Assembly: GCA_016840545.1 (NCBI GenBank)
Contig: JAEOSD010000007.1
Location: 1-35,042, forward strand
DNA: 35,042 nucleotides
Direction of reading: 5' to 3'
DNA from: Promethearchaeota archaeon
GTDB taxonomy: Archaea > Asgardarchaeota > Lokiarchaeia > Sigyniarchaeales > SOKP01
Made by a program: the position numbers and the translations under genes. Below the pieces are notes generated by a model. That model worked only from the letters and a program-made list of their open reading frames with translations. It was not told the origin of the DNA and made no database searches. Below, one piece after another: positions 3,497-25,518 of the stretch (positions are counted from its first letter, which is position 1; the number at the start of each line of letters is the position of its first letter).

Positions 3497-4945
3497 TTAA
3501 GTAACTGCTTCCTCTGCTTTCACTTCTTCTTTAGCTTCTTTTTCCTTTATATCTTCTTTCTTTACATAATCTCCAACAGATGTTAGAATTTCTTTGATTC
3601 TTCCCTCTTGTTGAAGTCTGATAATTAAATTCCTATGTTTAATAAAGGAAACAATTTTAGATACAATTGGAAAAATTAACATTATTGGTAACAATAAGAG
3701 TAAGATAATTTCTGGCGAAAACATTACCACACTCTCTGTGATTGCAGGAGGTAAGTTAAATACGTCTTCTAAGAACCATTTTGGATGGATAATGATAAAA
3801 CTTATAATAATAAGTACAACAAGACGAATCAGAATATTTAAAAAAGTGGATAATGCTAAACTTTGTGCTCTAGGTGCAGATGATCTGGCTGTTAATGTAT
3901 CTTGAGCTTCAATATCTTCACGATAAAGTCTCTCGACATATCTTCCCAGTCGTCTTGTTTTAGATGCTGCAGTTACTAATTTTTTCTCTTCTTCCTCTAA
4001 TTTCCTTTTTTCAATCATTTCTTTAATATATGAAAACTTTTCACTTGTTTTGGCAAAGAATTTACTTATTGTTGTTTTCTCTCCAATTTCTAGCTCTTCC
4101 ATTCTACTTTTGGCTTCTTCTTTAATTTTTTCCACGTTTGCAGTAATATAATGGGATTCACTCTTCAAAATTTCTAATTGAATTTCTAGTCTATCACTTC
4201 TTTCTAATGAAGGTCTTGTAACTGTTTCTGTATAATTAATTTGAAACGCTAATTCTATATACAGATAGGATATAATTGCGAGTAGTATGACTGGACTTGC
4301 CAGAAAAAGAAAGAAATTATCTATTGGAATTGAATTTAAAGATGGGTCTAGAGGATTTGGTAAATCTTCCAGATATTCAATTGAAACATGAAATAAATCT
4401 AACAGTTCATTAAAACCAGAAAAAATTAGGGGTACAATAATCATTAGAACTAATGCCCCTACAGCGATTAAGTCGTGTTTTGGGTTTGTTTTTAAAAATG
4501 TTCTAATTGCATAAATAATTGAAATAACAAATAATAATTGAAAAAGGATTAAATAAAAATCTCCAAAGAAGATTGAAATTTCATTTAAAATTAAATCTGG
4601 AATTTGATTTAAATCTGGTGTAGTTCCATCAGGAAAAGTGAACCAAAGATTTAAGAAGTTCTTAAAAAATCCATCTATGAAACTAAACATGAAGTCCCGA
4701 TTAATGAATGGAAGAAAAACGGTTGTTGCGATGAAAGCACAACCTATTGCTATTATATATGCTCCCGCAAAAATGATGAAGGTAAAAATGTTTTTAATAC
4801 TATCGATAAACGAAAATAAGGCAAATTCACCATCAGAAGTAAAGAGTACTTCATTAAAGTCGAATATAGAGAGAAAAACTAATATTAGCCAAACAAAAAT
4901 CAGAGCATTGATTATCTTTAATATTTTTAAATAATATCTTACCAT
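3497..4945 (-). CDS. polytopic membrane protein with central coiled coil, last gene of the MoxR/DUF58 cluster
   Basis: I do not recognise a named family. The 482-residue protein has about five hydrophobic segments in the first half (around residues 10-30, 48-78, 125-148, 157-180 and 205-232). A highly charged, probably cytosolic helical region of roughly 130 residues follows (EKIKEEAKSRMEELE, then EMIEKRKLEEEEKK). Two more membrane segments lie near residues 370-395 and 405-437. It ends in an acidic/lysine tail (KEKEAKEEVKAEEAVT). Its ATG lies two bases after the DUF58 stop, so the two are almost certainly co-translated. By position it may link the DUF58/MoxR cytosolic machinery to the membrane; that role is inference from context. 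Confidence 0.8.
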   Translation of the reverse strand: MVRYYLKILKIINALIFVWLILVFLSIFDFNEVLFTSDGEFALFSFIDSIKNIFTFIIFAGAYIIAIGCAFIATTVFLPFINRDFMFSFIDGFFKNFLNLWFTFPDGTTPDLNQIPDLILNEISIFFGDFYLILFQLLFVISIIYAIRTFLKTNPKHDLIAVGALVLMIIVPLIFSGFNELLDLFHVSIEYLEDLPNPLDPSLNSIPIDNFFLFLASPVILLAIISYLYIELAFQINYTETVTRPSLERSDRLEIQLEILKSESHYITANVEKIKEEAKSRMEELEIGEKTTISKFFAKTSEKFSYIKEMIEKRKLEEEEKKLVTAASKTRRLGRYVERLYREDIEAQDTLTARSSAPRAQSLALSTFLNILIRLVVLIIISFIIIHPKWFLEDVFNLPPAITESVVMFSPEIILLLLLPIMLIFPIVSKIVSFIKHRNLIIRLQQEGRIKEILTSVGDYVKKEDIKEKEAKEEVKAEEAVT

Positions 4946-4947
4946 AT

Positions 4948-6237
4948 CTAAAACGCCTTTCCTTTTTTCTTTGCCTCCATATAAGTACCTAATACTTGGG
5001 TCATCATATCATCAGGACCTACTGTTACAATATTAATTCCAAGATTTCGAATATCTTGCTTAACTTTTAGAATATGTTCCATCATCTCTTCACTGATGGC
5101 TTCTGCTAAAGCTTTATCTGTTGTAGATAAATCAATTTCATGAATCTCAAACCAAGGACTAAATGGGTTAATGATTATAATCGAGTGGTTGAATGGAACT
5201 AACTTCCTTATACCTTGGCCGATTTCTTTAATAGGTGATTCTAAATCTGATATATAGAAGATTAAACTGCGTTTTTGAAAACGCCTGATAAAATAGTCCA
5301 TTCCTTCAACTATTCTATTTTTTCCTTCAGGCTTAATTTTTGCCACAAAATCTAATACCTGATAAAAATGATCTTCTCCCTTTCCTGGTTTCAAAAATTG
5401 CATATTCTTTTTATCTGAAAATGTAAATACTCCAACGCTATCTCTACGTGTTAGCGCAACTTTTGTTAAAAGCATACCTGCTCTTATAGCATATTCAAAT
5501 TTTGTATTTTCAATAGCACCTCCTGCCATAGAATTTGACGAGTCAATAACAATCATGACAGTAATATCTCGTTCACTTTCGTATTCTTTTACAATTAATT
5601 GTTGAGTACGAGCACTTGCTTTCCAGTCTATTAGTCTGAATTGATCTCCAAAAACATACTTCCTCATACCATAAAATTCTGAACCGAGCCCTTTTTGCTT
5701 AGATCTTTGTAAACCATAGTTTAGTTGCAGAGATCTTTTAGATCCTAAAATTTCAATCTTTTTAATATCTTCATAAGGGGGATAAACTAATATATCTGAA
5801 ACACTGTCGGGAACTATTCGTTCTTCTGAATTAAATCCAAGTCTGTCTTTTACAGTAATTGAGAGTGGACCCAACGGATATTCTCCTCTAACTTTTGGCT
5901 CAAGAACATATGAGAATTTAATTAAACCTTTGGGGCCAATACGGGTAGAAATAAAATTTTCTCCTAAAACTAATCTAAAAAGTTCTGGATTATAATAATC
6001 TCGAATCTCAAGAAAATCAAAACTATTTTTTCCAGTATTTTCAACCACTACTTTTACATGAACAAAGTCATCTTTAAAGACCTTTTCTTTCTCTAACTCA
6101 CGATGTACACGTAATTCTTCTACATTCATTTTCCAATAAAAAGCTGGCAGGCTAATTATTGTACTAAATAATAAAAGAATGGCGAAATATATCAAATAAT
6201 AATTTACAAATGCAAATCCAGCTGTCAGAAAAAACAC
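4948..6237 (-). CDS. DUF58 protein with von Willebrand A domain
   Basis: A 429-residue protein. Residues ~8-36 form one or two N-terminal membrane segments, followed by a beta-rich region (HVKVVVENTG, SITVKDRLGF). The DUF58 signature lies at about residues 184-222 (GSEFYGMRKYVFGDQFRLID, then WKASAR and KEYESE). A vWA domain begins there with an intact metal-binding MIDAS motif, DSSNS at residues 232-236. DUF58 proteins are the habitual partners of MoxR AAA+ ATPases, acting as substrate adaptors or metal-dependent binding proteins on the cytosolic side. The start is a GTG; no ATG lies in frame before the upstream TGA, and a purine-rich GGAGG sits about 25-30 nt upstream, so the exact start is uncertain. 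MoxR precedes it by 118 nt. Confidence 0.9.
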   Translation of the reverse strand: MFFLTAGFAFVNYYLIYFAILLLFSTIISLPAFYWKMNVEELRVHRELEKEKVFKDDFVHVKVVVENTGKNSFDFLEIRDYYNPELFRLVLGENFISTRIGPKGLIKFSYVLEPKVRGEYPLGPLSITVKDRLGFNSEERIVPDSVSDILVYPPYEDIKKIEILGSKRSLQLNYGLQRSKQKGLGSEFYGMRKYVFGDQFRLIDWKASARTQQLIVKEYESERDITVMIVIDSSNSMAGGAIENTKFEYAIRAGMLLTKVALTRRDSVGVFTFSDKKNMQFLKPGKGEDHFYQVLDFVAKIKPEGKNRIVEGMDYFIRRFQKRSLIFYISDLESPIKEIGQGIRKLVPFNHSIIIINPFSPWFEIHEIDLSTTDKALAEAISEEMMEHILKVKQDIRNLGINIVTVGPDDMMTQVLGTYMEAKKKGKAF

Positions 6238-6355: not shown

Positions 6356-7336
6356 TTAGATTGGAATTGGTATTTCTTCTATAATGTTTTTAATTACTGA
6401 TCTAACATCTAAACCTTCCAACTCTGCTTCCGGCTTCAATAAAATACGATGATTTAATGCTGGGACTACTAACGCTCGTACATCGTCTGGTGTAACGTAT
6501 TGGCGACCTAAAATCGATGCTCGTGCTTTAGCACACTTCATTAATACCAAGCTAGCTCTTGGGCCTGCACCCATACTCAATTGTGGGTGGTTCCGTGTCT
6601 TTAAAATTATGTCTCTAATATATTTCAATATTCTGTCATCAATATAAACGAGATTCATCAGTTTCTGAGCAGCAAGTATTTCTTGAGAGCTTGTAATTTG
6701 CTCTACAGAAGGAGATTCGCCAGAAATTTGTCTTCTCATAATTTCTACCTCTCCATCCTCTTCAGGGTAATCAAGCCATACCTTCATGAGAAATCTATCT
6801 AATTGTGCTTCTGGTAAAGGGTAGGTACCCTCCATTTCAATAGGGTTCTCAGTAGCTAGAACTATGAAAGGCTTTTCTAAAGGCAAAGTTGTACCCTCTA
6901 TTGTTACTTGACGCTCAGCCATAGCTTCTAATAATGCTGCTTGAGTTTTGGGTGCACTTCTATTTATTTCATCGGCTAAAACCACATTTGCGAAAATTGG
7001 TCCTTTTTGAAGTACAAATGTCCCTTCTTCTTGAGAGAAGATTTTCGTGCCAGTGATGTCTGCTGGGAGTAGATCGGGAGTAAACTGAACCCGTCTAAAA
7101 CCAATTCCAAGCGTTTTAGCGAAAGTTTTGGCCATAACAGTCTTTCCTAGACCGGGTACTCCTTCAAGAAGTACATGTCCATTTACTAGAAGTGCTATAA
7201 AGAGTTCTTGCAAGATTTCTCCATAACCGACGATTACCCGCGAAACCTCGCTCAAAACTTCTTGTGCCATCTCTCGAATGGGAGCGACATCAAGTTCCTC
7301 TCTTTCATAATATTTTGCTTTATCTGGGGCTTCCAT
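6356..7336 (-). CDS. MoxR family AAA+ ATPase
   Basis: A 326-residue protein, full length for MoxR. Walker A is GVPGLGKT (59-66); Walker B is VLADEI with Asp122-Glu123, in the family-typical context VVLADEINRSAPKTQAALLE. TENPIEMEGTYPLPEAQLDR is the sensor/arginine-finger region. The C-terminal lid carries the LVVPALNHRI block. MoxR ATPases are cytosolic chaperone-like hexamers that help fold, insert cofactors into or remodel partner complexes, usually with a vWA/DUF58 protein encoded next door, exactly as here. It is the most strongly conserved member of the cluster. The ATG is preceded by an A-rich stretch without a clear ribosome binding site. Confidence 0.96.
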   Translation of the reverse strand: MEAPDKAKYYEREELDVAPIREMAQEVLSEVSRVIVGYGEILQELFIALLVNGHVLLEGVPGLGKTVMAKTFAKTLGIGFRRVQFTPDLLPADITGTKIFSQEEGTFVLQKGPIFANVVLADEINRSAPKTQAALLEAMAERQVTIEGTTLPLEKPFIVLATENPIEMEGTYPLPEAQLDRFLMKVWLDYPEEDGEVEIMRRQISGESPSVEQITSSQEILAAQKLMNLVYIDDRILKYIRDIILKTRNHPQLSMGAGPRASLVLMKCAKARASILGRQYVTPDDVRALVVPALNHRILLKPEAELEGLDVRSVIKNIIEEIPIPI

Positions 7337-7405: not shown

Positions 7406-9157
7406 TTATACATTATTAACAACCCATTCCATCTCAAAGAACAGGTTTTCAAAATCTTCTTCATTTTTAACTTTAGATTTACCTTCTTTAATAGGTAGTA
7501 TTCGATCCATAAATTTAGAGATTCTTTTAATTTTTACTTTAGTAATGCTAGGTTCTTTAGAGACTGCCAATTCAACAACATTTTTAGTTGTTATATTTCC
7601 ACCTTTTAATTGAGCATTCAATTTACGCTCTAATCTTCTATATAATAATTTTAGAGCTTTACCATATTCACTTTTATTCCTAAACCATTCTATTTTTTGG
7701 GCAAAATAAGACGAAGTTCTAAATTTTTCTCTTTCTTCTATTTGTTCTTGCTTTTTTGCTTTCTTCTTTTCTGCTTTTTCATCTTTTTTCGGTAAATACT
7801 TTCTTAATGTATAGACTGCTAGAAGAGGGTATATCCAAGCAGTTATTGGATTGGTAGAAAGGTGAACAACATATTGAATAATAAAACCAAAAAGTCCAGC
7901 AGAAGTTAAATCTCTTGAATATTCGGGGCGGATGTGAGCTTCATCAAATGCAACGACCCAATTGTCCTTATTTTCCCCAAAAGTGAGCCAATCTACAATA
8001 TTTATCCCAAATTGACGATTATCATAGCCTGGATTATTTATCAATTCATTATTAAATAAACTTGCATCGGCAGCCACAAAGAAGCGCCCATTTCCACCAA
8101 AAGCAGTTAAATCTTTGGCCATAAAGACAGCATGATAATATCCCGCTAATGGCCATTCAGTGGGAAAACCGGGTATAAAACTAGTAATCATGCTTAAATC
8201 TAGATAATCATCTTCATACTTATACATATGATCCCCGTTTTTATCAACGTAGGCAAATTTTGAAGTAGAACCTATTACATCCCAGTCAAAGACAGAAGTA
8301 AATGGTTCTCCAAGAGCACTTGATGAATGTGAAAGAATTACTTCATGTATATTATTTGTTGTTGGATGAGCTGGATCAAAACTTTCAATAACAGGAAAAT
8401 CTGGGCGAGTATCATAAGAATCATTATCTCGCAATATTCCATCGGGAAAAATTGCTACGGGAATTACTCCTTGGATATCAGGATCCAAAGCACTTGCAAT
8501 AAAAATTTCCCATAATAAGGTGCTGGTGCTGCCATGATCATGACAAATCAAAATTGAATTTTTAGTCTCATTACTAAAAAAATCTACAAAAAAGGGTACT
8601 TCAAATAACGGATTATAAAATTGATTTGGGCCTAATAATATTAATAAAACAGATTTATTCAAGCGTTGAGTTGCGCTTAAGCTAGTTTGTATTGACATAA
8701 TATTATATCCTTCCTGCTCAAGAGAATTTCTAAAATCAGAAGCTCCATTCCACTCATCATTGTATATAGAGAAATTTTGATCATTCTCTCCTTTATCAAA
8801 AATAGGACCTATTAATGGGGTTAAAATAAAAATAAAAATGGTAAGTAGTAATGCTTCTTTGTAAATGGAACCAGTTTGAACTTTTTTACGGGAGAGCGCC
8901 TCTCTTGACTTTTGTGCATAAACATTACGAAGAAAAATAGCAAATCCTATTACTAGGAAGATGGCTCCAATATAACATACGAAGGGAATATAACTTAAGT
9001 AAACTGGGGGTACTTCACCAGGATGGTTTATTTGATAAATTTCGACAAAATCTGAAATGAATATACCATAATATATTAAAAATATGGTAGAGAATACAAA
9101 AAGTATCCCTTTCGACAAATTTACATTTTTCCTTTTATTTTTCCCACTACTAGCCAT
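7406..9157 (-). CDS. DUF4350-like membrane protein with C-terminal helical domain
   Basis: The 583-residue protein has three hydrophobic segments near residues 16-38, 52-74 and 95-117. An extracytoplasmic domain of ~300 residues follows with a DUF4350/GATase-like layout: SDFRNSLEQEGYNIMSI, then a strand-rich VLLILLGPNQFYNP, and near the end VVAFDEAHIRPEYS, a conserved-looking acidic segment. A further membrane segment lies near residues 430-455 (GFIIQYVVHLSTNPITAWIY). The cytosolic tail starts with a lysine-rich linker and ends in a helical domain (~495-583). That domain resembles the small protein encoded downstream of the 522-residue gene and the tail of the 522-residue protein (pattern ALKLLYRRLERKL ... 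NVVELAV ... FMDRIL). DUF4350 genes commonly accompany MoxR, DUF58 and transglutaminase-like genes. Start ATG 9157. Confidence 0.75.
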   Translation of the reverse strand: MASSGKNKRKNVNLSKGILFVFSTIFLIYYGIFISDFVEIYQINHPGEVPPVYLSYIPFVCYIGAIFLVIGFAIFLRNVYAQKSREALSRKKVQTGSIYKEALLLTIFIFILTPLIGPIFDKGENDQNFSIYNDEWNGASDFRNSLEQEGYNIMSIQTSLSATQRLNKSVLLILLGPNQFYNPLFEVPFFVDFFSNETKNSILICHDHGSTSTLLWEIFIASALDPDIQGVIPVAIFPDGILRDNDSYDTRPDFPVIESFDPAHPTTNNIHEVILSHSSSALGEPFTSVFDWDVIGSTSKFAYVDKNGDHMYKYEDDYLDLSMITSFIPGFPTEWPLAGYYHAVFMAKDLTAFGGNGRFFVAADASLFNNELINNPGYDNRQFGINIVDWLTFGENKDNWVVAFDEAHIRPEYSRDLTSAGLFGFIIQYVVHLSTNPITAWIYPLLAVYTLRKYLPKKDEKAEKKKAKKQEQIEEREKFRTSSYFAQKIEWFRNKSEYGKALKLLYRRLERKLNAQLKGGNITTKNVVELAVSKEPSITKVKIKRISKFMDRILPIKEGKSKVKNEEDFENLFFEMEWVVNNV

Positions 9158-9699: not shown

Positions 9700-11268
9700 T
9701 CAAAAATTCAATACAAAATTATATCCCGTTAATTGTAAATAAATTGGTGAAAATAATTCTACAGTTTTATAAAAATCATGATCAGATATTTGAAATGGTT
9801 TTGCATAAATAATTTCTTCAATTTTTTGAATAAAAGGATAAATAGTCGTAGGATTTAATTTTAAATCTTTTACGCTTATTATCGCAAAATCTCTTATTGT
9901 CTCTTTTACATCTCTTGTTCTTCCAAATTTAGCATTTACTAAATCCATATAAATTGCATTAAAAAGATAAGATAAAGATTCTTCTAATCTTCCAGAATCT
10001 TTTAAAATTTTAAGATTAATTATTTTACTCTCAAGAGGAAGATTAACAACCCTTGAAAGTTTATCTTGTTTTTTATAATAACGATAACCATAAAAAGATA
10101 ATCCTGCAATAATAACAGCTAATACAGGTAAAAAAATTGCTAGAAACATAAAGAAAGGGGTTTCACCTGGGGTTGAAGGTCCACTTGGTTGCTGGGCTTC
10201 AACATCAATATATTGAGTTGTTTCTAAGCCACTCCCAATTAGTACAATTCTTAAACTAGAAAGTCCTATTCCTGTAGGGAGGGGAAATACGTAAGAGAAA
10301 TCTCCATTACTATCTGTTCTATCTGTTCCAATAAAAGATCCATTATAATATATATCTATATCTCTATTACTAATTAAAACGGAGGGATTTGTGCTGGATA
10401 CTAATTGCCCAGCAATATTTAAATTGCTATTTTCAGTAATAGTAGAGGGTAAATTCCATAAGCAAGAAATATCTGAAAAAATCTTAGTATTAACAATTAC
10501 TGCTTCTGAATAACCTACAAATGGAGGATCAGAATAGTTCAGCTTTAGAGTTAGATCATCTTCTGGAACAAATGGGACAAAAATAAAGTCTTTTGGGATT
10601 TCACCAAACCCATTTGTGAAAAACGAGCCCGAATCTATAATATTGAGACCATAATACCAATAATAGTTAACAAAGGCATTAGAGATGCCCATTCCGTTTT
10701 GAAAGTTTAAGTAACCATCAAAATTAAAAAATTCACCATGTAAAGAGGCAGAGAAAGGATCCTGCACATCAAAATAAGAAGTAGTATTTACAAAAATTAG
10801 TAAATAAGTACGGTACTCTACGTTGTCTGGAGTAGAGTCAGTAACTTCAGCTTCGATTGTATGACTGATATAAACATCAAGAGAAGGAGTAACATTATAA
10901 TTAATTTGGAAATATCCATTTAAATCTGTATCATCATTTATTCCTGGGTATAATATTCCATCAATTTTTAAGGCCACTGTATATCCTTGTTTACCATCAT
11001 CCCATATCCTATTATATAATCTACCATAAATCTGTATTAAGTTATTATGAGGATGTCGGGAATTATTCACATTGTAAATGTCAATTAAATCTAAAGTTGC
11101 CCATATCCCTGACTTTTTAAGATTTTTATTGTCAATATAAGTTATGTTAGTTTTAATGTAATTTAAACTAAATAAAAATAGAATTGAAAAAAATAAACCT
11201 AAAGCTAATTGTATCTTTTTTTTCCCTAATTTTCCAATTTTTAATTTGTTTCTAAAAATTTTATTCAT
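9700..11268 (-). CDS. membrane-anchored Ig-like surface protein with cytosolic helical tail
   Basis: The 522-residue protein has a signal-anchor (IQLALGLFFSILFLFSLNYI, ~19-38), then an ectodomain of ~330 residues. The ectodomain has repeated beta-sandwich features typical of carboxypeptidase-regulatory or Big/Ig-like domains: TDLNGYFQINYNV near 115, and DSNGDFSYVFPLPTGIG near 320. A proline-rich linker and a membrane segment (FFMFLAIFLPVLAVIIAGLS, ~372-392) follow. The cytosolic domain of ~110 residues is homologous by eye to the 126-residue protein encoded next. Several N-glycosylation sequons are present in the ectodomain. It starts 20 nt after the stop of the giant surface protein, so it is probably co-transcribed with it. 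The likely role is linking the extracellular assembly to the cytosolic MoxR/DUF58 side (inference). Confidence 0.75.
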   Translation of the reverse strand: MNKIFRNKLKIGKLGKKKIQLALGLFFSILFLFSLNYIKTNITYIDNKNLKKSGIWATLDLIDIYNVNNSRHPHNNLIQIYGRLYNRIWDDGKQGYTVALKIDGILYPGINDDTDLNGYFQINYNVTPSLDVYISHTIEAEVTDSTPDNVEYRTYLLIFVNTTSYFDVQDPFSASLHGEFFNFDGYLNFQNGMGISNAFVNYYWYYGLNIIDSGSFFTNGFGEIPKDFIFVPFVPEDDLTLKLNYSDPPFVGYSEAVIVNTKIFSDISCLWNLPSTITENSNLNIAGQLVSSTNPSVLISNRDIDIYYNGSFIGTDRTDSNGDFSYVFPLPTGIGLSSLRIVLIGSGLETTQYIDVEAQQPSGPSTPGETPFFMFLAIFLPVLAVIIAGLSFYGYRYYKKQDKLSRVVNLPLESKIINLKILKDSGRLEESLSYLFNAIYMDLVNAKFGRTRDVKETIRDFAIISVKDLKLNPTTIYPFIQKIEEIIYAKPFQISDHDFYKTVELFSPIYLQLTGYNFVLNF

Positions 11269-14200: not shown

Positions 14201-15737
14201 TTGAAGATTGTCCATTAGGATCTGTATAGTCATTACCAAGAAGTTCCCCAGTACTTAGATCTCTGAAAGTAATTCCTATATTATCTATAGGTTCGGTAGA
14301 GGAACTCAAATAAGCAGTTATATTCGCAGTCTCTGGTAATCGATAATAAACTGCAGGAAAGGGGCGATCAGTATAAACGGAAATATTATAATCTCCTCCT
14401 GTTACTGGGCTTCCACCAGTTCCAAAGCTGTCAAATATGATATCCATTTGTACCCATTGACCATTTCCAAAATAATCTGATGGCACATAAATTTCTGCCC
14501 AATTGTATAAATTTTTATACTTAATTGCAAAACCATTGGCGCCTTCAATTGGATCAGAAATTTCTTGAATACCAAAACTATTAAATCCATCAACAAATCG
14601 ACTTGCCACTCCAAAAATTCGGCAAAACACACTGAAGGCAGATGCAAAATCAGACCAAACACCTTGCTTAGTCTCACAAAACCAGTCAACAGCATCTCTA
14701 CCAGGCGGAGCAGGATTATAAGAGTTGGGATCAATTGGAAACGTAAAATAGGTTTGAAGATGATTTCTGATCTTATTAGCTACTACAAAGGCATTGTCAT
14801 ATTCATTTATGGTATTATTTAATATTACTAAGGTGTCATTGACAAAATAATTGTTTGTTAGATAAGCATCTAAAGCCAGAGGTAATTGTAAATACCGATT
14901 TTGAATTACCGGAGGAGTATATATTGCTCCTACCGCACTATTATTGATATCATCATTCGAGGGTAGGTTTAGGCCAAACATGTAATAACTCATGTTTACA
15001 TCAGCTTCACTTATAAAAGTTAAATCCATTGTAGTACTATTAAAATCATCTTTATAAAATTTAGGATCATCTGGTGCTGTTAGTACCATATTGGGAGCAG
15101 AAACTGAACCATCAATAACATATGGATTTGGAAAAAGAGTAGGGGCGACCATAGAATTTATTCCTAAGGTAGGAGTTAATGGCATTTTTATTTTCAGTAA
15201 ATCCTTATCAGAATGATAAGTAAGCCAATCGTTATAAGAATAAAAATTATAATTTTGAGTGGACGCAGTTGAGTGCCATCCATCTCCAGTATATTCATCA
15301 AAACATTCATATTTCCATAATTTATTTGTCATTGCATTGAAATCACTATAATAAAAAACTCTAAATACTTCAATTTCAGAAGCTAATAAGCCTAAAATGC
15401 TTTGTGAAAAATTTCCTAAATCTAAATCGTCAATATCACCATCAAACATATCTTGTAGTGAGTCTAATAAGTCTTGCAATTGATCTTGAGATAAATTTAA
15501 ATTATCAAAAATATCAGACCAATTAAAGGGTATGGGAATGAATACCGGATTCCCCTCCTCATATTCTGCTTCTGATAATTGGTCGCTAGGAAAGGGTCTT
15601 TGACTACCAAAAAGTAAACTATAAAGAAGTACAGAAAAAGCAAATAGGGAAATTAGCAAGATAGTAACAAGAAATATCCCAATTACTCGCTTTTTATTAA
15701 TAGGTGAAATTAATAAATCTTCACGAAATTCTGACAT
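11289..15737 (-). CDS. giant surface protein: degenerate transglutaminase-like domain plus four Ig-like tandem units
   Basis: A 1482-residue protein. One N-terminal membrane anchor lies at ~17-42, then an acidic Asp/Leu-rich segment (~75-112). A transglutaminase-like (papain-fold) domain at ~300-440 reads QGVWSDFASAFSVFCRIFGV, ASRFVDGF, YNWAEIYVP and WVQMDIIFD. Family members have Cys, His and Asp in these blocks. Here they are Trp361 (TGG), Tyr411 (TAC) and Asp432, so only Asp remains and cross-linking activity is not expected. The rest is beta-rich with four units of ~230-240 residues. These are recognisable by DFNGT-like strands at about 640, 876, 1102 and 1341, and by SGPVPREINR and SGPVPREISR at about 784 and 1020. 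Many Asn-X-Ser/Thr sequons are present and no C-terminal anchor is visible. It is the first gene of the seven-gene cluster; ATG with an A/T-rich promoter upstream. Confidence 0.85.
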   Translation of the reverse strand: MSEFREDLLISPINKKRVIGIFLVTILLISLFAFSVLLYSLLFGSQRPFPSDQLSEAEYEEGNPVFIPIPFNWSDIFDNLNLSQDQLQDLLDSLQDMFDGDIDDLDLGNFSQSILGLLASEIEVFRVFYYSDFNAMTNKLWKYECFDEYTGDGWHSTASTQNYNFYSYNDWLTYHSDKDLLKIKMPLTPTLGINSMVAPTLFPNPYVIDGSVSAPNMVLTAPDDPKFYKDDFNSTTMDLTFISEADVNMSYYMFGLNLPSNDDINNSAVGAIYTPPVIQNRYLQLPLALDAYLTNNYFVNDTLVILNNTINEYDNAFVVANKIRNHLQTYFTFPIDPNSYNPAPPGRDAVDWFCETKQGVWSDFASAFSVFCRIFGVASRFVDGFNSFGIQEISDPIEGANGFAIKYKNLYNWAEIYVPSDYFGNGQWVQMDIIFDSFGTGGSPVTGGDYNISVYTDRPFPAVYYRLPETANITAYLSSSTEPIDNIGITFRDLSTGELLGNDYTDPNGQSSILININDSKVVGHHLIEARVNPVIVNYTLFTIAGDIQVNLTLVTPTMVNRSDTAPDITNVQGYLYDPVANKRVKDAEVNFKLLQIGTNNEIFNAFIPSTQFTDPNGEFNEILNINPSVPAGQYEIRVDFNGTWMLPIFYVPFTSIVPITNSSQRREFNITKVLSLLFYINSYPANDPNNPLVFRNDPLILNAIVMLENVGPVQGKRVFFHDWTRGGIELGSAISDVTGSASITIPANNSFTAGPNLLYARHNLQENYSYFILNEEPTINIFSGPVPREINRTGSGATNTWFNIEGEILDATNLNPLGDCILRLRLFSLGGSDYSSNLLPSESFYTDFNGYFNLNFEVDSNTPIGNYTLRLDFNGTMDRNWVPMYPYFFNLPILSTSSNFAHELLISTPATLSFNFWINGTTSDNYNQPIINYNDHLDLSVNLTWGGAPIGDGELIEFYDVTQDRLIDAVSTSSGFAQTLYITDFSTIAGPHQICARWGSYYNFSYFILNEQIIVDFESGPVPREISRGQTSFNLHGYVNDSLNHSPIKYAEISVHLYYGSTEVFGYLIHESGSLQLDNTGEFDLYYSVSGSTPEQNYTIKVEFNGIFLYSYPPSNNPHDFYLFLPNFYDIVNASHELKVIDPDNLDIYLSVEGNPTLPFYDNGKPPETYYFGQQAHFQVQIVHAESKIGRSVTMYDDYSGSPIQSYIFTSDTGFVQFNVSTNNLHAGLNRIRVNYHTFPTFNITYVVVNETFTISPNAKDSVLRNFDNFDVNTYVRDGTINLNGLEITILLLDNTFSDVSFYLNLAGPQTITVYNGYYQFNINSILLNCPEGQYYLRIDFYGNLFDAGISLFNYMAYEISSPIPINVSAGTTLSGNYDTRVVKDQFYEGDDLYAYGYLRWDNGTEIAFKNVTVTIRDNLGFIITSKIGSTDINGFFNITIVIGAAWPDDAEVWVSFYPEDNFTAPRYYFIKSSEQQLFRP

Positions 15738-15994: not shown

Positions 15995-16858
15995 TTAAAA
16001 TTCAAATCCACATTTAGTACAGACATTTTTCTTTGCATATTGTGGTTTTGGTATGTAACTGATTATCTTGGTTTTATCTTCAACTTCCTTAATAGCAAAA
16101 CCAGATGCACCACAATTTGGGCAAATTCTCCTTGAACCTCCAAGTTCAACTCCTAGATCCTGGGAAGGAGTAGATATTGGGGCGGTAGATGTTCCAAAAG
16201 AAGGACTACTTCCAAAGGTTGATGTTTGAGAGGTAATTCCTTGTGCTAAACTAGATGGCATAACTGGTTTGGGTTCTTTTAATTCCTGAATCCTCCTTTC
16301 TTTATAGGTTAATTCTTCCTGCAATTTATTAATTTGTGATTGAAGGGGACCAATTTGTTGCTGTAAATTCATGTTTTCTTGTTGAACTCGCTGGAGCTGA
16401 CCTTGTAGCTGTGGTAATTGTGCTTGCAATTGTGCTTTTTCATTATTTATTTGGTTAATTTGATTTTGATAGGTTTCTATAGTAGCTTGAAGATTTTGGA
16501 CTTTAGAAGTTAATTGGTTTATTTGATGATCCTTTTCATGAACTTGTGCATTTAAGTTAGCAAATTGAGTATTAACACTTTGGAGTTGATTTTCTAAATC
16601 CCTGAGACGTGCTTCTCTTTCTTGAACTTGACTCATTGCTGCATTATATTCTGCTTGTGATGGCCCACTTGGAAATGATGGTTCAGGTTCATATGTTGGG
16701 TATGAAGGAGCAGGTGTAGGTGGTGGAGGGCTTGTTGGTGGTATAGATTGTGGCGGGACGGTAGGTGGGGGCATAGAAGGAGGTCTTAATGGAGGGGGTG
16801 AGGGTTTTTTTGGTTTTTCTTCGTCTTCTCTATCATATTCGTATGAAATTATAATCAC
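15995..16858 (-). CDS. proline-rich, coiled-coil, C-terminal zinc-ribbon protein
   Basis: The 287-residue protein has three parts. Residues ~15-75 are very proline-rich (PSPPPLRPPSMPPPTVPP and more) and likely unstructured. Residues ~70-205 form a Gln/Asn-rich coiled coil with strong heptads (INQLTSKVQNLQATIETYQN, LQGQLQRVQQENMNLQQQ). After a Ser/Thr linker, the C-terminal 45 residues are a zinc ribbon with two CxxC pairs, CPNCG and CTKCG. No membrane segment is seen. The start is GTG with no in-frame ATG nearby. I cannot name a family; an adaptor or scaffold is suggested by the poly-proline plus coiled-coil layout (inference). It is monocistronic by spacing, 257 nt upstream of the surface-protein cluster and on the same strand. 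Confidence 0.8.
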   Translation of the reverse strand: MIIISYEYDREDEEKPKKPSPPPLRPPSMPPPTVPPQSIPPTSPPPPTPAPSYPTYEPEPSFPSGPSQAEYNAAMSQVQEREARLRDLENQLQSVNTQFANLNAQVHEKDHQINQLTSKVQNLQATIETYQNQINQINNEKAQLQAQLPQLQGQLQRVQQENMNLQQQIGPLQSQINKLQEELTYKERRIQELKEPKPVMPSSLAQGITSQTSTFGSSPSFGTSTAPISTPSQDLGVELGGSRRICPNCGASGFAIKEVEDKTKIISYIPKPQYAKKNVCTKCGFEF

Positions 16859-18169: not shown

Positions 18170-18198
18170 ATAACTATTAAGAAAATTTGAAAATAACA

Positions 18199-18720
18199 AT
18201 GGTTTATCGAACATACAATTTAAAGATCATAATTATTGGAGATTCTGGGGTTGGAAAAACGAGTTTAGTAAAGAGGTTTGTATCAAGGCAATTCTCCAGA
18301 GATTACAAAGCATCTATAGGGACAAATTTATTTATCAAGAAAATAGTATCGGATTCTGATGAGGAGATATCACTTAATATTTGGGATATAGCAGGTCAGG
18401 AACGTTGGGTGAAAATGAGACATTTATATTATAATGGTTCGGATGGAGCTTTAATTGTTGGAGATCTTACAAGAAAGAATACTTTTTATCAAATTACTAA
18501 ATTTTGGATACCAGATTTGAAAAAAAATTGCAGTGGTATCCCAATTATTTTACTAGCTAACAAAAATGATCTTAACCCTGATATTTCAAAAACAGAGATT
18601 GAGGAAATTAGCAATAAAATAAATGCTAATTCAATAATATATACTTCAGCAAAAAATGGAGAACATGTTGAAGAATCATTCAAATTGATATCAGAATTAT
18701 CTTTAAAATTCTCACATTAA
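18199..18720 (+). CDS. Ras/Rab-like small GTPase
   Basis: A 173-residue protein from the ATG at 18199 (a TTG at 18187 would add four residues). All five G boxes are present: G1 GDSGVGKT (14-21), G2 Thr42 in SIGTNLF, G3 DIAGQE (63-68) with catalytic Gln67, G4 NKND (121-124) and G5 TSAK (149-152). The DxAGQE and GTxxFxKK context is Rab-like, as in the large GTPase families of Asgard archaea. The protein ends in LKFSH with no cysteine, so there is no C-terminal prenylation box and no transmembrane segment. It therefore probably acts as a soluble switch or binds membranes through partners. It is divergent from the HDAC gene and convergent with the dehydrogenase gene, so transcribed alone. Confidence 0.95.
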   Translation: MVYRTYNLKIIIIGDSGVGKTSLVKRFVSRQFSRDYKASIGTNLFIKKIVSDSDEEISLNIWDIAGQERWVKMRHLYYNGSDGALIVGDLTRKNTFYQITKFWIPDLKKNCSGIPIILLANKNDLNPDISKTEIEEISNKINANSIIYTSAKNGEHVEESFKLISELSLKFSH

Positions 18721-19894: not shown

Positions 19895-22021
19895 TTAGTC
19901 TTCCTTATTTGTAAACTTTATAAAATTATTTCTTGGTTCATATAGAGTTCCTTCTTTTATTAATTCTTCAAGAGCATCATTAATCCATTTTTCATCTAAA
20001 TCCTCTTCTACATCAAGAATTTGAATTATAGCTTTCTTCTCCATTGATTTCCAATTATTTTCTTCAAATATTTCTTTTAATCTATTTAACAATTTATCAA
20101 GTTTATTAATTGAACTCCTAGATTGACCCACTAAAATTCTATCCATATCTATTTTTCCAGTTGTCTCATCATAACCCGTATCTTTTAAATATCTTTTAAA
20201 CAGTTTTATAACTTCATCTACATCTTCCTTAAGTACCTTACTCCTTAAGGCCATTTTAGCATAAGCTTCACTTAATCTGACAAGTGCATCTAAATTTCTT
20301 GCTAAGATTGATACAACAGCATCCTCACTTTCATATTGGCCTCTTAAATCTAAATAAAATTCTTTTATCTGTTCTTTAGCTTCTTCTGTTATTAAAGGAT
20401 GACAAGTTTTCCTAGCATGTTTAATATATTTTTTTAAGAAATCTCCCGATATCGGAGAGATTTTATTATTTTCATCTGTAATTGTTTGATTTGCACTAAT
20501 CATAGAATTCTGAAGTATGAATTCAGCCATTTGAGCATCCTCAGTAGGATTTGGTCTGTCAATAACTACAAAAATTAGATCAAATCGTGATAATAGAGAG
20601 GGTGGTAAATAGATATTTTGAGTTGGAGTTTTATATCGGTCATATCTTCCTGATCGAGGATTTGCTGCTGCAATAATTGCTGTTTGTGCTTTTAATGTTG
20701 CTACAATACCAGCCTTAGCTATACTAACAGTTTGTTGTTCCATCTGTTCATGTAGAGCAGATCTATCAGCAGGATTCATCTTATCGAATTCATCAATAGC
20801 TGCAACACCACCATTGGCTAATACAACTGCACCTGCTTCAAGGTTCATTTGTCCTGTATCAGAATCTTTAATAACCGCTGCCGTTAAGCCAACGGCCGTA
20901 GATCCTTTCCCAGATGTGTAAAGACCTCGCGGTGATATATCAATTGCGCTTTTGAGGATTTCACTTTTGCCAGTCCCGGGATCTCCTACAAATAACACAT
21001 GTATTTCTCCTCTCTTATAACTACCGTCAGGCCTCTGTTTTCTAGTACCTGCAAATAAACTTAAAGCACATGCCATTTTAAGTTCATCCCTTCCATAAAT
21101 CGTAGGAGCAATGGATCGAGCAATTTTTCTTTGGATCATTGGCTCTTTTGATAAATTTTTAATTTCTTTTAGATCTTCTTTTGATAGTTCTATGATGTCT
21201 TCTGTTTTATCTTCTGAATCGATAAAATTTACTTCAATGAAGGTTTTAAATAAAGTACTATTTATGTTTTTAATCGATTGGGCTATAACAGATTTGAAAA
21301 TGCCAATAATTTTTACCCTATCTCCTGGTTTTACAAAATCCACTAATTCTTGTATTAAAATTGCTTGATTAGATCTAGGAATTCTACCAGGGGGTAAATC
21401 TTCAGGGATTTCTTGTATCATAATACTTTGCCAATCTATAAATGAAGAATTTTTAGATATTAATCTAAAATCTGATTGTGCCTTAGCCTTACATCTTTTG
21501 TTAATACAGAATTTTGGCCACTTTATTTTTGATGTAAGTTGAATCACTTCAAACTGAGAGCCACATATTGTACATTCAAAAGTTGCTTTCACTAACTTTG
21601 GTCTTATTGTTGAACTTCTAACTACAATTCCATTGAAACATACTAATGTATCAATATTTTTCGCTCTCAGTCCTCTTAAAGGTAAAATTAATGGACTGTT
21701 TTCATCTTTTGTGGTAATCCTAACGTAAAATTCCTGACTTGTTTTACCTCCTCCTTGAAATTTCATAATATTTTCAAAAGCTTCAGCAGCATCTTCTAGC
21801 AACAATTCAGGATCTTTTTTAAGCATTTCAGCAATTTGAGAGTCAAAAGCCAATAAATCCTCATATAATATGATTAGAGTATTACCACCTTTAGATATAA
21901 TATCAATAATTTGGTCCTGATACTTATATACTCCTGGTCTATCTTCGAATAACCTTATAAAATCCTCAAATCGCTGAACTTGATGAATAGGAATACTGGG
22001 ACTAGTTGAAGGTATAGCCAA
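19895..22021 (-). CDS. mcm: replicative DNA helicase MCM
   Basis: The 708-residue protein matches archaeal MCM throughout. The N-terminal domain carries a zinc site (Cys150, Cys153, Cys172, Cys177) and the OB-fold block RIPRSNQAILIQELVDFVKP. The AAA+ core has Walker A GDPGTGKS (346-353), Walker B AAIDEFDKM (Asp410-Glu411), sensor ANPRSGRY and the arginine finger SRFD (Arg479). A C-terminal winged helix follows (~620-708, IIQILDVEEDLDEKWINDAL). It unwinds DNA at the replication fork as a hexamer with Cdc45/RecJ and GINS. The start is TTG at 22021, fixed by a strong ribosome binding site, AAGGTGAA, five bases upstream (22027-22034). A GINS-like gene lies 3.6 kb away on the other side of a HEAT-repeat gene. 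Confidence 0.97.
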   Translation of the reverse strand: MAIPSTSPSIPIHQVQRFEDFIRLFEDRPGVYKYQDQIIDIISKGGNTLIILYEDLLAFDSQIAEMLKKDPELLLEDAAEAFENIMKFQGGGKTSQEFYVRITTKDENSPLILPLRGLRAKNIDTLVCFNGIVVRSSTIRPKLVKATFECTICGSQFEVIQLTSKIKWPKFCINKRCKAKAQSDFRLISKNSSFIDWQSIMIQEIPEDLPPGRIPRSNQAILIQELVDFVKPGDRVKIIGIFKSVIAQSIKNINSTLFKTFIEVNFIDSEDKTEDIIELSKEDLKEIKNLSKEPMIQRKIARSIAPTIYGRDELKMACALSLFAGTRKQRPDGSYKRGEIHVLFVGDPGTGKSEILKSAIDISPRGLYTSGKGSTAVGLTAAVIKDSDTGQMNLEAGAVVLANGGVAAIDEFDKMNPADRSALHEQMEQQTVSIAKAGIVATLKAQTAIIAAANPRSGRYDRYKTPTQNIYLPPSLLSRFDLIFVVIDRPNPTEDAQMAEFILQNSMISANQTITDENNKISPISGDFLKKYIKHARKTCHPLITEEAKEQIKEFYLDLRGQYESEDAVVSILARNLDALVRLSEAYAKMALRSKVLKEDVDEVIKLFKRYLKDTGYDETTGKIDMDRILVGQSRSSINKLDKLLNRLKEIFEENNWKSMEKKAIIQILDVEEDLDEKWINDALEELIKEGTLYEPRNNFIKFTNKED

Positions 22022-22200: not shown

Positions 22201-25200
22201 TTAAGTTTCTTTAAGTTTTGCTAGTATTTCGCATATTATAGGATCTTGCGACATCTCACATCTTACCTTTAATAAAGCAATGATTCTCTTCTTTATTTTT
22301 TCATCTTCATATTTAGCTGTTCTTCCTAAAATTAAGGCAATAGATTGTTGTGTAGTTAAAGAACCAGAATCACTGAGATTTTTCAATAATCTAGATAAAA
22401 TTTTAGATAATCCAACCTTTTGGATGATTTGAATCATAGTATTTATTATCGATCTTCTTACATCATCAGATTCATCACCTAACAGAATTAAAACTTTTTC
22501 AAAATTGTCATCGATAATATTAAAATCGTATATTTTTAGTAAATTAGCAGCTCCTTGTCTAACTTTAGAATCTTCATGATTTAGATTTCCTAATACTTTT
22601 TCAATTGGAATTATTGAGGGATCAATATTTTTTATTGAAGCAATTAAATTCATTGAGGAATTCCGGACCCAATTATTTTTATCATTCATTAATAGAACTA
22701 ACTCGTCAATAATTTGTCGTTTGTCATCAACTTTTTGAATAATATTTCCTAAACTTGAGACAGCTGCATCTCGTACTATCCATTCTTCATCAATTAATGC
22801 CTTGTTTAATAAAATATTCACAGCTTCTAAAGGCACTTTATACCCAATAAATCCTAATATTTTAACACTTGTTTCTCGGATAAATGAATCTTTATCTGAA
22901 TATAAATTTATAATAGTACTCACAGGTATTAAATCAGGTTCTTTTTTAGCAATTTCTAATAATGATTTTGTTAAAATAACTCTTACTGATAAATCCTGTT
23001 TATATTGCAACTGGAATAATTCATTTATTACTGGCTTTAAGTAGATTGGATCTTTTTTCGCGATCTTTGAAATTAATTGAGATCCCTCCTTTTTAGCATT
23101 GATATTGTAAGGTTCTTGAAATATTGAAAGAATTACCTTTTTATCTATATTATAAAGATAATCATCAACTAGACCTTCTAATGAAACAATTGAATTTAAT
23201 ATTATATCATCATTATCACTGTGAATGAACTTCAGTAGCTTTGGGATTAAGGTATCTGGATTCTGTCTAACTATTTCAATTATGGTGCTTGAAATAATCC
23301 CTTTTGATATAAATTTCGATTCATCTTTTATTTTTATTAGATTTTCAAAAATTAAATCTGGAGTTTTAGGATATTTTGTTATAAGAATCTTTGAGATTTC
23401 ATTTTTCAGATCATTATCTTCAAACTTTATGAAAATTAGGAGGATGCTTAAAACTTTTTCCGGATTTTTTTCCCATAAATCGCCAAGAAGTTTTAATACA
23501 CTTAATAAAATTTTAGTGTTGCTTGGATCAACTTTATTTATAATCATATCTATATTTAAAGCTTTAGGGTTTTCATCAAAATATTTTCTAAGTGCTTGAG
23601 CTGCTGAAATTCTTACATTTTCATCAAAATCAACCAATCCCTCAAAGAGTGGTGTGATTGGAATTGAAAATTTCTTAAAATTCCCTATTTTTGCCAAAAT
23701 TTCAAAAACTGAAGCTCTAACATTTGCAGTTGGATCATTTATAAAGGGAAGAATTTGAGAAATTAATTCTAAATTAATATTGTCTAAAGAAATATTTTTA
23801 AGATTGCGAATAGCAGCGGCTCTTATTTCTCTATGAGGATGATTTAATTTATTCAATATGATATTAATTGGAATGGGAAACCCAGATTCTTCTAAAACAT
23901 TAAAAATTTCAATCTGTACTTGATTATCTGGATCATTTATCAGCTTTTTCATATCAAGTTTTAGAATTAATTCTTCTTCTTGTTGAATTAGTTTTGAAAT
24001 TAATTTTAATCCGATTAATTTTAATCTCCACTCGAAATCATTTATTAAGCTAAAAATTAATTTTTTTGGGATTTTTTGTAATAATTCGATATTGGTATTT
24101 AATAGAGATCTCGCAAAAGGAAGGACTTTATCATAATTTGGGGAGTCTAAACCCTCTGTTATCCAAGGAAGGATTGTTTCTGGAATATCTTCTTCCAATT
24201 GATTTAATACTTTATAGCATACTCTTCTTGAATTAATATTGGGATCACACAAGCCATCAATTAGTAAATTTTTGAATCTCCATTCATTAGGAGAAATTTC
24301 ATATTTTAATGGGATTCGCTCAAACATAAGAATTAATGTACTCTCAGCATATTTTCTCAATTCTGGATTTTTATTTTTTATAAAATGAAAAAGAGGGATA
24401 GGGTCAAAACTTTGACCGCATTTAGTAATTTTAGAATACCTAATATTAAATTTGAATTTATTTTTTCTTGATACTAAATAAAAGGTTGTAAAAATTATTA
24501 GAATGATTTCTTCGATTACTGAAGGCCATGCATATAACAAATAATTAGGTTCAATTTCTTGAGTTAAGGTCCAAAAATTTAACGTGTTAGCTAAGGTAGT
24601 AATATTTACTAATATAAAATTGACAAATACATTTAAACCAATCGCAGCCATTAAATACGCAGCAAAATAAATATCGATACCACGATATTTAATTTTTCTT
24701 CCCCAAAATCGTGTAAAATATCCAATGATTCCAAAAAATAATGTAATATATACAAAATATGAAGACATTGTGGATATAGCGAGTTTACCAGTGAAGAAAA
24801 AACTTATTGTTTGAATTAGAGATATCCAAGCCCATACGAATACAAATATCATGAATCCTAAAATAATATATGGTCTAGGAAAAGATACAAACTGTTTCAT
24901 ACCACGTTTACTATTTTCAAAATTTAAAAATAGAGATCTTTTTATCTCTGGGATATGATAATATTCATTTGAAATTCCAGCAATATAACCTTTTGTTCCA
25001 TAGAGCACTAATATTAATAATGGGTAAACTAGCATCCAGAATATCCAGATCAATAAAAAAGGTAATCCTAACATGCTTAATAAAAGGGGAGGTATAACAA
25101 ACAAAGAATATAACAATAGAGCCATAAAGAATGAAATTAATTTATTGTTTGATATGTTGATAAAGTATTTGCTAATGAATTTATGAAAAGGTGTAAGACC

Positions 25201-25518
25201 CTCATCAGATTCTTTGCTTAAGGCAATAAATAAAAAATCTATTAACGGATAAACAGAAATGTAGATTAGGCAAATAATAAAAGGAATTAATAAAATAAGG
25301 GGGTTAACTGTTTCAATAGTAAATATAACTCCCATAGAAATAACAATCATAGCCGCCAAGCAGAAAATAACACCATAAATAATACATTGAAGACGATCTT
25401 TTGTGTTAAATTCTCCTTTTTTTACTAAAGCAACTTGTTTATATATAATAAAAAAACCAAAAATAAAGATTATTATAAAAATTACAACTAAAATTGATTC
25501 AACAAGCAAATTTTCCAC
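22201..25518 (-). CDS. polytopic membrane protein with a long cytosolic HEAT-repeat array
   Basis: The 1105-residue protein is in two halves. Residues 1-~355 hold about nine or ten hydrophobic segments (e.g. VESILVVIFIIIFIFGFFII, LILLIPFIICLIYISVYPLI, YIILGFMIFVFVWAWISLI, VIEEIILIIFTTFYLV). From ~385 to the end come roughly 15-18 HEAT-type helical pairs of ~37-40 residues with the usual D/N-x-x-V/I-R spacing (HREIRAAAIRNLKNI, TANVRASVFEILAKIG, ENVRISAAQALRKYF, DDVRRSIINTMIQI). HEAT arrays are protein-binding scaffolds, so a membrane-tethered scaffold is plausible. I do not recognise a named family. Start is GTG 25518. It is divergent from the GINS-like gene and lies between it and mcm. Confidence 0.88.
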   Translation of the reverse strand: MENLLVESILVVIFIIIFIFGFFIIYKQVALVKKGEFNTKDRLQCIIYGVIFCLAAMIVISMGVIFTIETVNPLILLIPFIICLIYISVYPLIDFLFIALSKESDEGLTPFHKFISKYFINISNNKLISFFMALLLYSLFVIPPLLLSMLGLPFLLIWIFWMLVYPLLILVLYGTKGYIAGISNEYYHIPEIKRSLFLNFENSKRGMKQFVSFPRPYIILGFMIFVFVWAWISLIQTISFFFTGKLAISTMSSYFVYITLFFGIIGYFTRFWGRKIKYRGIDIYFAAYLMAAIGLNVFVNFILVNITTLANTLNFWTLTQEIEPNYLLYAWPSVIEEIILIIFTTFYLVSRKNKFKFNIRYSKITKCGQSFDPIPLFHFIKNKNPELRKYAESTLILMFERIPLKYEISPNEWRFKNLLIDGLCDPNINSRRVCYKVLNQLEEDIPETILPWITEGLDSPNYDKVLPFARSLLNTNIELLQKIPKKLIFSLINDFEWRLKLIGLKLISKLIQQEEELILKLDMKKLINDPDNQVQIEIFNVLEESGFPIPINIILNKLNHPHREIRAAAIRNLKNISLDNINLELISQILPFINDPTANVRASVFEILAKIGNFKKFSIPITPLFEGLVDFDENVRISAAQALRKYFDENPKALNIDMIINKVDPSNTKILLSVLKLLGDLWEKNPEKVLSILLIFIKFEDNDLKNEISKILITKYPKTPDLIFENLIKIKDESKFISKGIISSTIIEIVRQNPDTLIPKLLKFIHSDNDDIILNSIVSLEGLVDDYLYNIDKKVILSIFQEPYNINAKKEGSQLISKIAKKDPIYLKPVINELFQLQYKQDLSVRVILTKSLLEIAKKEPDLIPVSTIINLYSDKDSFIRETSVKILGFIGYKVPLEAVNILLNKALIDEEWIVRDAAVSSLGNIIQKVDDKRQIIDELVLLMNDKNNWVRNSSMNLIASIKNIDPSIIPIEKVLGNLNHEDSKVRQGAANLLKIYDFNIIDDNFEKVLILLGDESDDVRRSIINTMIQIIQKVGLSKILSRLLKNLSDSGSLTTQQSIALILGRTAKYEDEKIKKRIIALLKVRCEMSQDPIICEILAKLKET

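Follow-up and report, generated by a model that had tools for sequence, protein, structure and literature searches.

A transglutaminase-like domain without the catalytic cysteine and histidine in a MoxR-DUF58 gene cluster of a Lokiarchaeon

Clusters of MoxR, DUF58 and transglutaminase genes are widespread, and the transglutaminase-like protein is usually taken as the enzyme of the system. Asgard archaea are the archaeal phylum closest to eukaryotes, and one such cluster lies in the window studied here, a stretch of 35,042 nucleotides of a Lokiarchaeon genome. Its leading gene, gene G, encodes a transglutaminase-like domain with aromatic residues in the places of the catalytic cysteine and histidine. 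This raises the question of whether the protein is an enzyme that works through other residues, a decaying relic, an artefact of the assembly or a domain that selection keeps for a task other than catalysis.

Architecture and catalytic positions of the gene G protein

The gene G protein has a single N-terminal transmembrane segment followed by a beta domain, the transglutaminase core and a series of Ig-like repeats (Table 1). From this layout we predict a large membrane-anchored protein of the cell surface. Because the hydrophobic segment is the only one, the residues that follow it are most simply extracellular, which would place the transglutaminase domain outside the membrane. The Pfam profile Transglut_core (PF01841) matches residues 320-432 with 43.6 bits (cut-off 23). 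Just one second match occurs in the source genome, in a separate protein of 227 amino acids in which GxC and HxY motifs are present. NCBIfam names were looked for the transglutaminase-like protein and for the products of genes F, E, D and A, and none was found.

Table 1. Features of the gene cluster and of the gene G protein, in window coordinates
Feature	Position	Strand	Basis
Gene G, pseudo-transglutaminase with Ig-like repeats, 1482 aa	11289..15737	(-)	open frame; Transglut_core; 46 distinct same-family sequences
N-terminal transmembrane segment, residues 18-36	15630..15686	(-)	hydropathy 2.81, no second segment of this kind
N-terminal beta domain, residues ~120-300	14838..15380	(-)	AlphaFold2 together with the transglutaminase core, mean pLDDT 87; Foldseek
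Transglutaminase-like core, residues 320-432	14442..14780	(-)	Pfam; TgpA alignment
Ig-like ectodomain (predicted), residues 461-1482, repeats of ~232 aa	11292..14357	(-)	self-comparison; AlphaFold2 of residues 442-920; Foldseek
Trp361, codon TGG, at the catalytic Cys position, block GVWSDFASAF	14655..14657	(-)	sequence, homologues and TgpA alignment
Tyr411, codon TAC, at the catalytic His position, LYNWAEIYVP	14505..14507	(-)	Tyr invariant, 46/46 same-family homologues
Asp432, third triad position, WVQMD, kept	14442..14444	(-)	Asp 45, Glu 1 among 46
Gene F, membrane protein whose predicted extracellular part lies between two hydrophobic segments; C-terminal domain cytosolic	9700..11268	(-)	hydropathy; conserved order
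Gene E, stand-alone homologue of the F C-terminal domain, 126 aa	9211..9591	(-)	39% identity, E 2e-21
Gene D, DUF4350-like membrane protein	7406..9157	(-)	Pfam PF14258 E 2.3e-6, 28.5 bits, cut-off 30.4
MoxR-family AAA+ ATPase	6356..7336	(-)	Pfam AAA_3 217.7 bits, AAA_lid_2
DUF58 protein, vWA-like domain	4948..6237	(-)	Pfam DUF58 103.7 bits, VWA_2
Gene A, end of the cluster, polytopic membrane protein	3497..4945	(-)	about ten hydrophobic segments; conserved order

The AlphaFold2 model of residues 110-476, built with 34 homologues, has a mean pLDDT of 87 and a pTM of 0.86. Its best PDB match is the periplasmic domain of Pseudomonas aeruginosa TgpA (6g49/6g4h; E 4.1e-12 and 3.6e-11, TM-scores of 0.50-0.64), with 331 columns aligned by Foldseek, and a further match is 3isr, a putative cysteine protease of Cytophaga (E 5.3e-6). 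A significant match was also sought in the viral structure library, and none was found. TgpA, which has been assayed as a transglutaminase (PMC3507681), resembles the Lokiarchaeal protein in carrying a beta domain and a transglutaminase core in the same order and outside the membrane, a location that is predicted in our case. It differs in having several N-terminal transmembrane helices, whereas the Lokiarchaeal protein has one such segment and a long tail of Ig repeats. The AlphaFold2 model of residues 442-920 is all-beta and shows a row of Ig-like domains (pLDDT 91). Its top Foldseek matches are complement, alpha-2-macroglobulin and an adhesin repeat, with TM-scores over the query so low (0.17-0.26) that we call this region just Ig-like or macroglobulin-like beta domains.

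TgpA (6g49) was also the best sequence-profile match in the PDB when a family profile of 34 homologues was aligned with it (E 2.1e-10). The alignment sets GFCAHYAG over GVWSDFAS, DAHAWVEY over LYNWAEIY and WLSVD over WVQMD, so that the Cys, His and Asp of TgpA fall on Trp361, Tyr411 and Asp432 of gene G. The same three residues had been named in a preliminary description of this DNA, whose interval 14444-14657 spans exactly from Trp361 to Asp432, and the frame of 1482 codons is open as it stated. TgpA keeps the full triad, whereas the Lokiarchaeal protein is without its Cys and His, and a domain with W/Y/D lacks the catalytic Cys-His-Asp triad of the Transglut_core superfamily. By descent and fold the domain is transglutaminase-like and, as far as the defining triad can be read from its residues, it is not a functional transglutaminase.

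Homologues are present in most genomes of the same family, and we compared 46 distinct same-family sequences from Lokiarchaeia. The Cys position is aromatic in all of them (W 31, Y 8, F 7) and the His position is Tyr without exception, while the Asp is kept in 45 sequences and replaced by Glu in one. The proximity of the TGG and TAC codons to Cys and His codons, one base away in each case, had been pointed out before; it is true and weak by itself, and the evidence comes from the orthologues, which share the aromatic class at the first position and the Tyr at the second. These sequences also refute an artefact of sequencing, assembly or reading frame. The source assembly is fragmented (2.88 Mb in 220 contigs, 92% completeness), which would favour such an artefact, but the same residues recur in genomes from many species that were assembled independently, and the replacements are common to every same-family homologue with a readable active site, so that we give this explanation practically no probability.

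An intact Cys and His elsewhere in the domain would be the mark of an enzyme that acts through other residues, with Cys354, Cys369 or, in related families, a Ser as the nucleophile. The cysteines found most often near the site are C354 (40/46) and C369 (32/46), many other Asgard families have S/H/D, and papain-like enzymes with migrated active sites are known (PMC10318531). However, neither of the two cysteines is invariant and the window has Ser at position 369. Invariant Cys or His columns were sought in the transglutaminase domain of the 46 sequences and there were none, so that no substitute catalytic dyad is apparent. The replacements by P, G or A, which in family f8 accompany a changed His (M, T, I, A), are incompatible with a Ser enzyme. 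An alternative catalytic pair elsewhere in the domain was rejected for want of an invariant Cys or His, and continued catalysis through other residues appears improbable. In the Asgard families that combine Ser, His and Asp, some residual chemistry is conceivable.

Selection on the transglutaminase-like domain

The alignment of the 46 sequences contains 17 invariant columns, the reading frames are open in all, and the invariant fold residues are G359, R373, R380, G384, W413, E415 and W428. In the tree of these sequences, W and F/Y were exchanged at the Cys position at least seven times. The codons are TGG versus TAY and TTY, and each exchange thus takes two base changes. None of the intermediates (Cys, Leu or stop) is present at this position among the 46 sequences, which argues that selection favours aromatic side chains at this site or disfavours Cys there. 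The transglutaminase core is under purifying selection, with dN/dS in six close pairs of 0.05-0.18 (NG86) and 0.06-0.26 (YN00), figures that are approximate, as some pairs are close to saturation at synonymous sites. In most of the six pairs the value is below that of the Ig part.

A useless enzyme in decay would account for the varied replacements across the phylum, which suggest that the two catalytic positions came under weaker constraint. Low dN/dS, the invariant columns, the open frames and the aromatic class kept at the Cys position speak against it, and on the conserved columns and dN/dS we reject decay of the domain, leaving it only a very small probability. Read from these alignments, the transglutaminase domain is a pseudoenzyme kept up by selection, with the catalytic residues gone in every one of the 46 family members.

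The main rival to a binding role is a purely structural one, in which the aromatics pack into the former active-site cavity and make the fold more stable, the domain serves as a rigid base or spacer between the membrane and the Ig stalk, and the cleft holds no ligand. The bulky W, F and Y replace one another and remain aromatic, as expected for packing, and other Asgard families have Pro, Gly, Ala or Ser at the same position, which leaves no common chemistry of the cleft. Against this, Tyr411 never varies and Asp432 hardly does, a degree of conservation beyond what packing by itself would demand, and the motif around these two residues is among the best conserved stretches. We regard the structural role as unlikely on balance, while it deserves more weight than any of the other rivals. 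It also bears on the preliminary description, which had proposed selection for a non-catalytic, probably ligand- or peptide-binding role. The first part is borne out by the homologues, the low dN/dS and the aromatic class maintained through the exchanges; the second part is one of two possibilities, since an aromatic plug in a structural domain fits equally. Ligand binding by the domain is plausible.

The MoxR cluster and the loss of the cysteine across the Asgard phylum

Gene G is followed after 20 bp by gene F, and the order G-F-E-D-MoxR-DUF58-A, with gene G first and all genes on the same strand, recurs from the family of the window to distant Asgard families. The pair of E and F is retained in many Asgard clusters. 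A predicted archaeal complex for secretion or membrane remodelling combines arCOG01314/DUF4350 with MoxR, vWA and Ig-like membrane proteins (PMC5898192). The Lokiarchaeal locus is similar in that the MoxR ATPase and vWA/DUF58 pair of this type is present and clustered with Ig-like membrane proteins; gene D, with its PF14258 score just under the cut-off, is a candidate for the DUF4350 component. It differs from the complex as published in being led by a giant protein of pseudo-transglutaminase and Ig-like domains; a transglutaminase was looked for in the main text of PMC5898192 and is not mentioned there. For other members of the MoxR group it is established that MoxR and vWA partners work together as chaperones, remodelling or assembling complexes (PMC7159879).

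Several neighbouring genes were also recorded. Directly upstream of the transglutaminase-like gene lies a gene for a coiled-coil protein with a CxxC zinc-ribbon-like C-terminus (15995-16858), conserved in this place across the family. Ras-family small GTPases are typical of Asgard archaea, and the window encodes one at 18187-18720 (Pfam Ras, 136.6 bits). The MCM gene (19895-22021) adjoins a gene, conserved in the family, for a membrane protein of 1105 amino acids with a long HEAT-repeat region (22201-25518). In a related Lokiarchaeota genome the MCM helicase gene (L046:2797-6480) is interrupted in frame by some 520 inserted codons that encode intein-splicing and LAGLIDADG domains. The MCM gene of the window is without this insertion, and the MCM genes of L050 and L056 show gaps of similar size.

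Beyond the family, the homologous gene in the same taxonomic order has P/D, P/Y and Y/C at the Cys/His positions, with S/H and F/H in the same class and P/M, P/T, P/I, P/A, G/H, S/H and A/H in other families of the phylum. Among homologues outside the family of the window that are linked to MoxR (downstream, on the same strand), 22 of the 27 genomes are without the Cys and 5 have it. The triad C/H/D is intact in family f22 (L198, L199 and L227). These sequences indicate that, across the Asgard phylum, the Cys has as a rule been lost and that the replacements (W/F/Y, P, S, G or A) vary by family. Counting losses as irreversible on a quick tree would imply seven independent events, versus three by plain parsimony, and the AU test did not reject a single clade of all Cys-bearing rows (p 0.11).

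Two other arrangements were observed in the phylum. In family f10 (L181, L197 and L226) tandem transglutaminase domains lie in one protein of 1.56-1.59 thousand amino acids upstream of MoxR; the first domain keeps the Cys in all three, with C/H/D intact in two and His replaced by Tyr (C/Y) in one, and the second has P/H. One genome of family f4 (G047; L036/L178) carries an intact C/H/D copy that clusters with f22 (99% SH-aLRT), unlike the other f4 copies, and this grouping suggests a transfer or contamination of the assembly.

Outside Asgard, 16 of 17 homologues near MoxR keep both Cys and His, in a sample whose pattern fixed the His position to Y or H and left the Cys position free, so that the comparison is fair for Cys only. 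The exception is Dorea, with Ala at the Cys position. The preliminary description noted that in clusters of this type the domain is usually assumed to be an enzyme, and in these homologues the triad is indeed mostly kept.

A proposed role for the pseudo-transglutaminase

Pseudo-transglutaminases are already known. Fungal Cyk3 stimulates chitin synthase through a transglutaminase-like domain that lacks the catalytic Cys (PMC4758748), and the human transglutaminase-like proteins EPB42 (band 4.2) and FBXO21 are catalytically inactive and retained in evolution (PMC10318531). The Lokiarchaeal domain resembles Cyk3 in the missing Cys, and the job of Cyk3 is non-enzymatic and regulatory (PMC4758748). 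Cyk3, however, keeps His and Asp and acts inside the cell at the division site, whereas the Lokiarchaeal domain has neither Cys nor His and is predicted to be extracellular. EPB42 and FBXO21 likewise conserve an inactive transglutaminase-like domain, but they are eukaryotic, have other domain architectures and stand in a context unrelated to gene G.

The gene cluster too had been predicted before. What appears to be new is that, judged by its residues, the transglutaminase-like protein of the MoxR cluster is non-catalytic across most of Asgard, and that one large family of Lokiarchaeia carries a fixed aromatic pair. Papers on transglutaminase with Asgard or Promethearchaeota, and on Lokiarchaeota with MoxR, were searched for in the open literature, outside which most subscription papers lie, and none dealt with the gene G protein.

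The reading that we favour, with some confidence, is that the conserved pseudo-transglutaminase serves as a non-catalytic module for docking or assembly of the predicted MoxR-DUF58 surface complex, by analogy with Cyk3, EPB42 and FBXO21. The TgpA-type fold would have been retained while catalysis was lost, and in the Lokiarchaeia family the positions of the nucleophile and the base would have been refilled by the aromatic pair (W/F/Y and Tyr). Presumably placed outside the membrane at the base of the Ig-repeat stalk, the domain may use the old substrate cleft to hold a segment of a partner, perhaps one of the further Ig-like proteins encoded in the cluster, and MoxR and DUF58 may remodel or assemble the complex from inside. 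The sequences themselves show that Cys and His are lost throughout the family, that purifying selection acts, that gene order is conserved and that one hydrophobic anchor lies at the N-terminus; the extracellular placement, the lack of activity, the docking role, its partner and any effect of MoxR on the complex are what we infer.

A broader version of the docking proposal is doubtful and is offered as a tentative idea. Throughout Asgard, the transglutaminase-like protein of the MoxR surface complex may have turned from an enzyme into a binding module, with the active site in Lokiarchaeia becoming an aromatic pocket for a surface peptide or glycan, and the complex would then be a receptor or sorting machine and not a cross-linking or proteolytic one.

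If Asgard archaea do keep the cluster complete around a dead enzyme, transamidation or proteolysis by this protein would not be what the complex is mainly for, which would narrow the role of the system in a testable way. At most Asgard MoxR loci the label 'transglutaminase' is probably a misannotation, and gene G would encode a strongly selected protein of the predicted cell surface.
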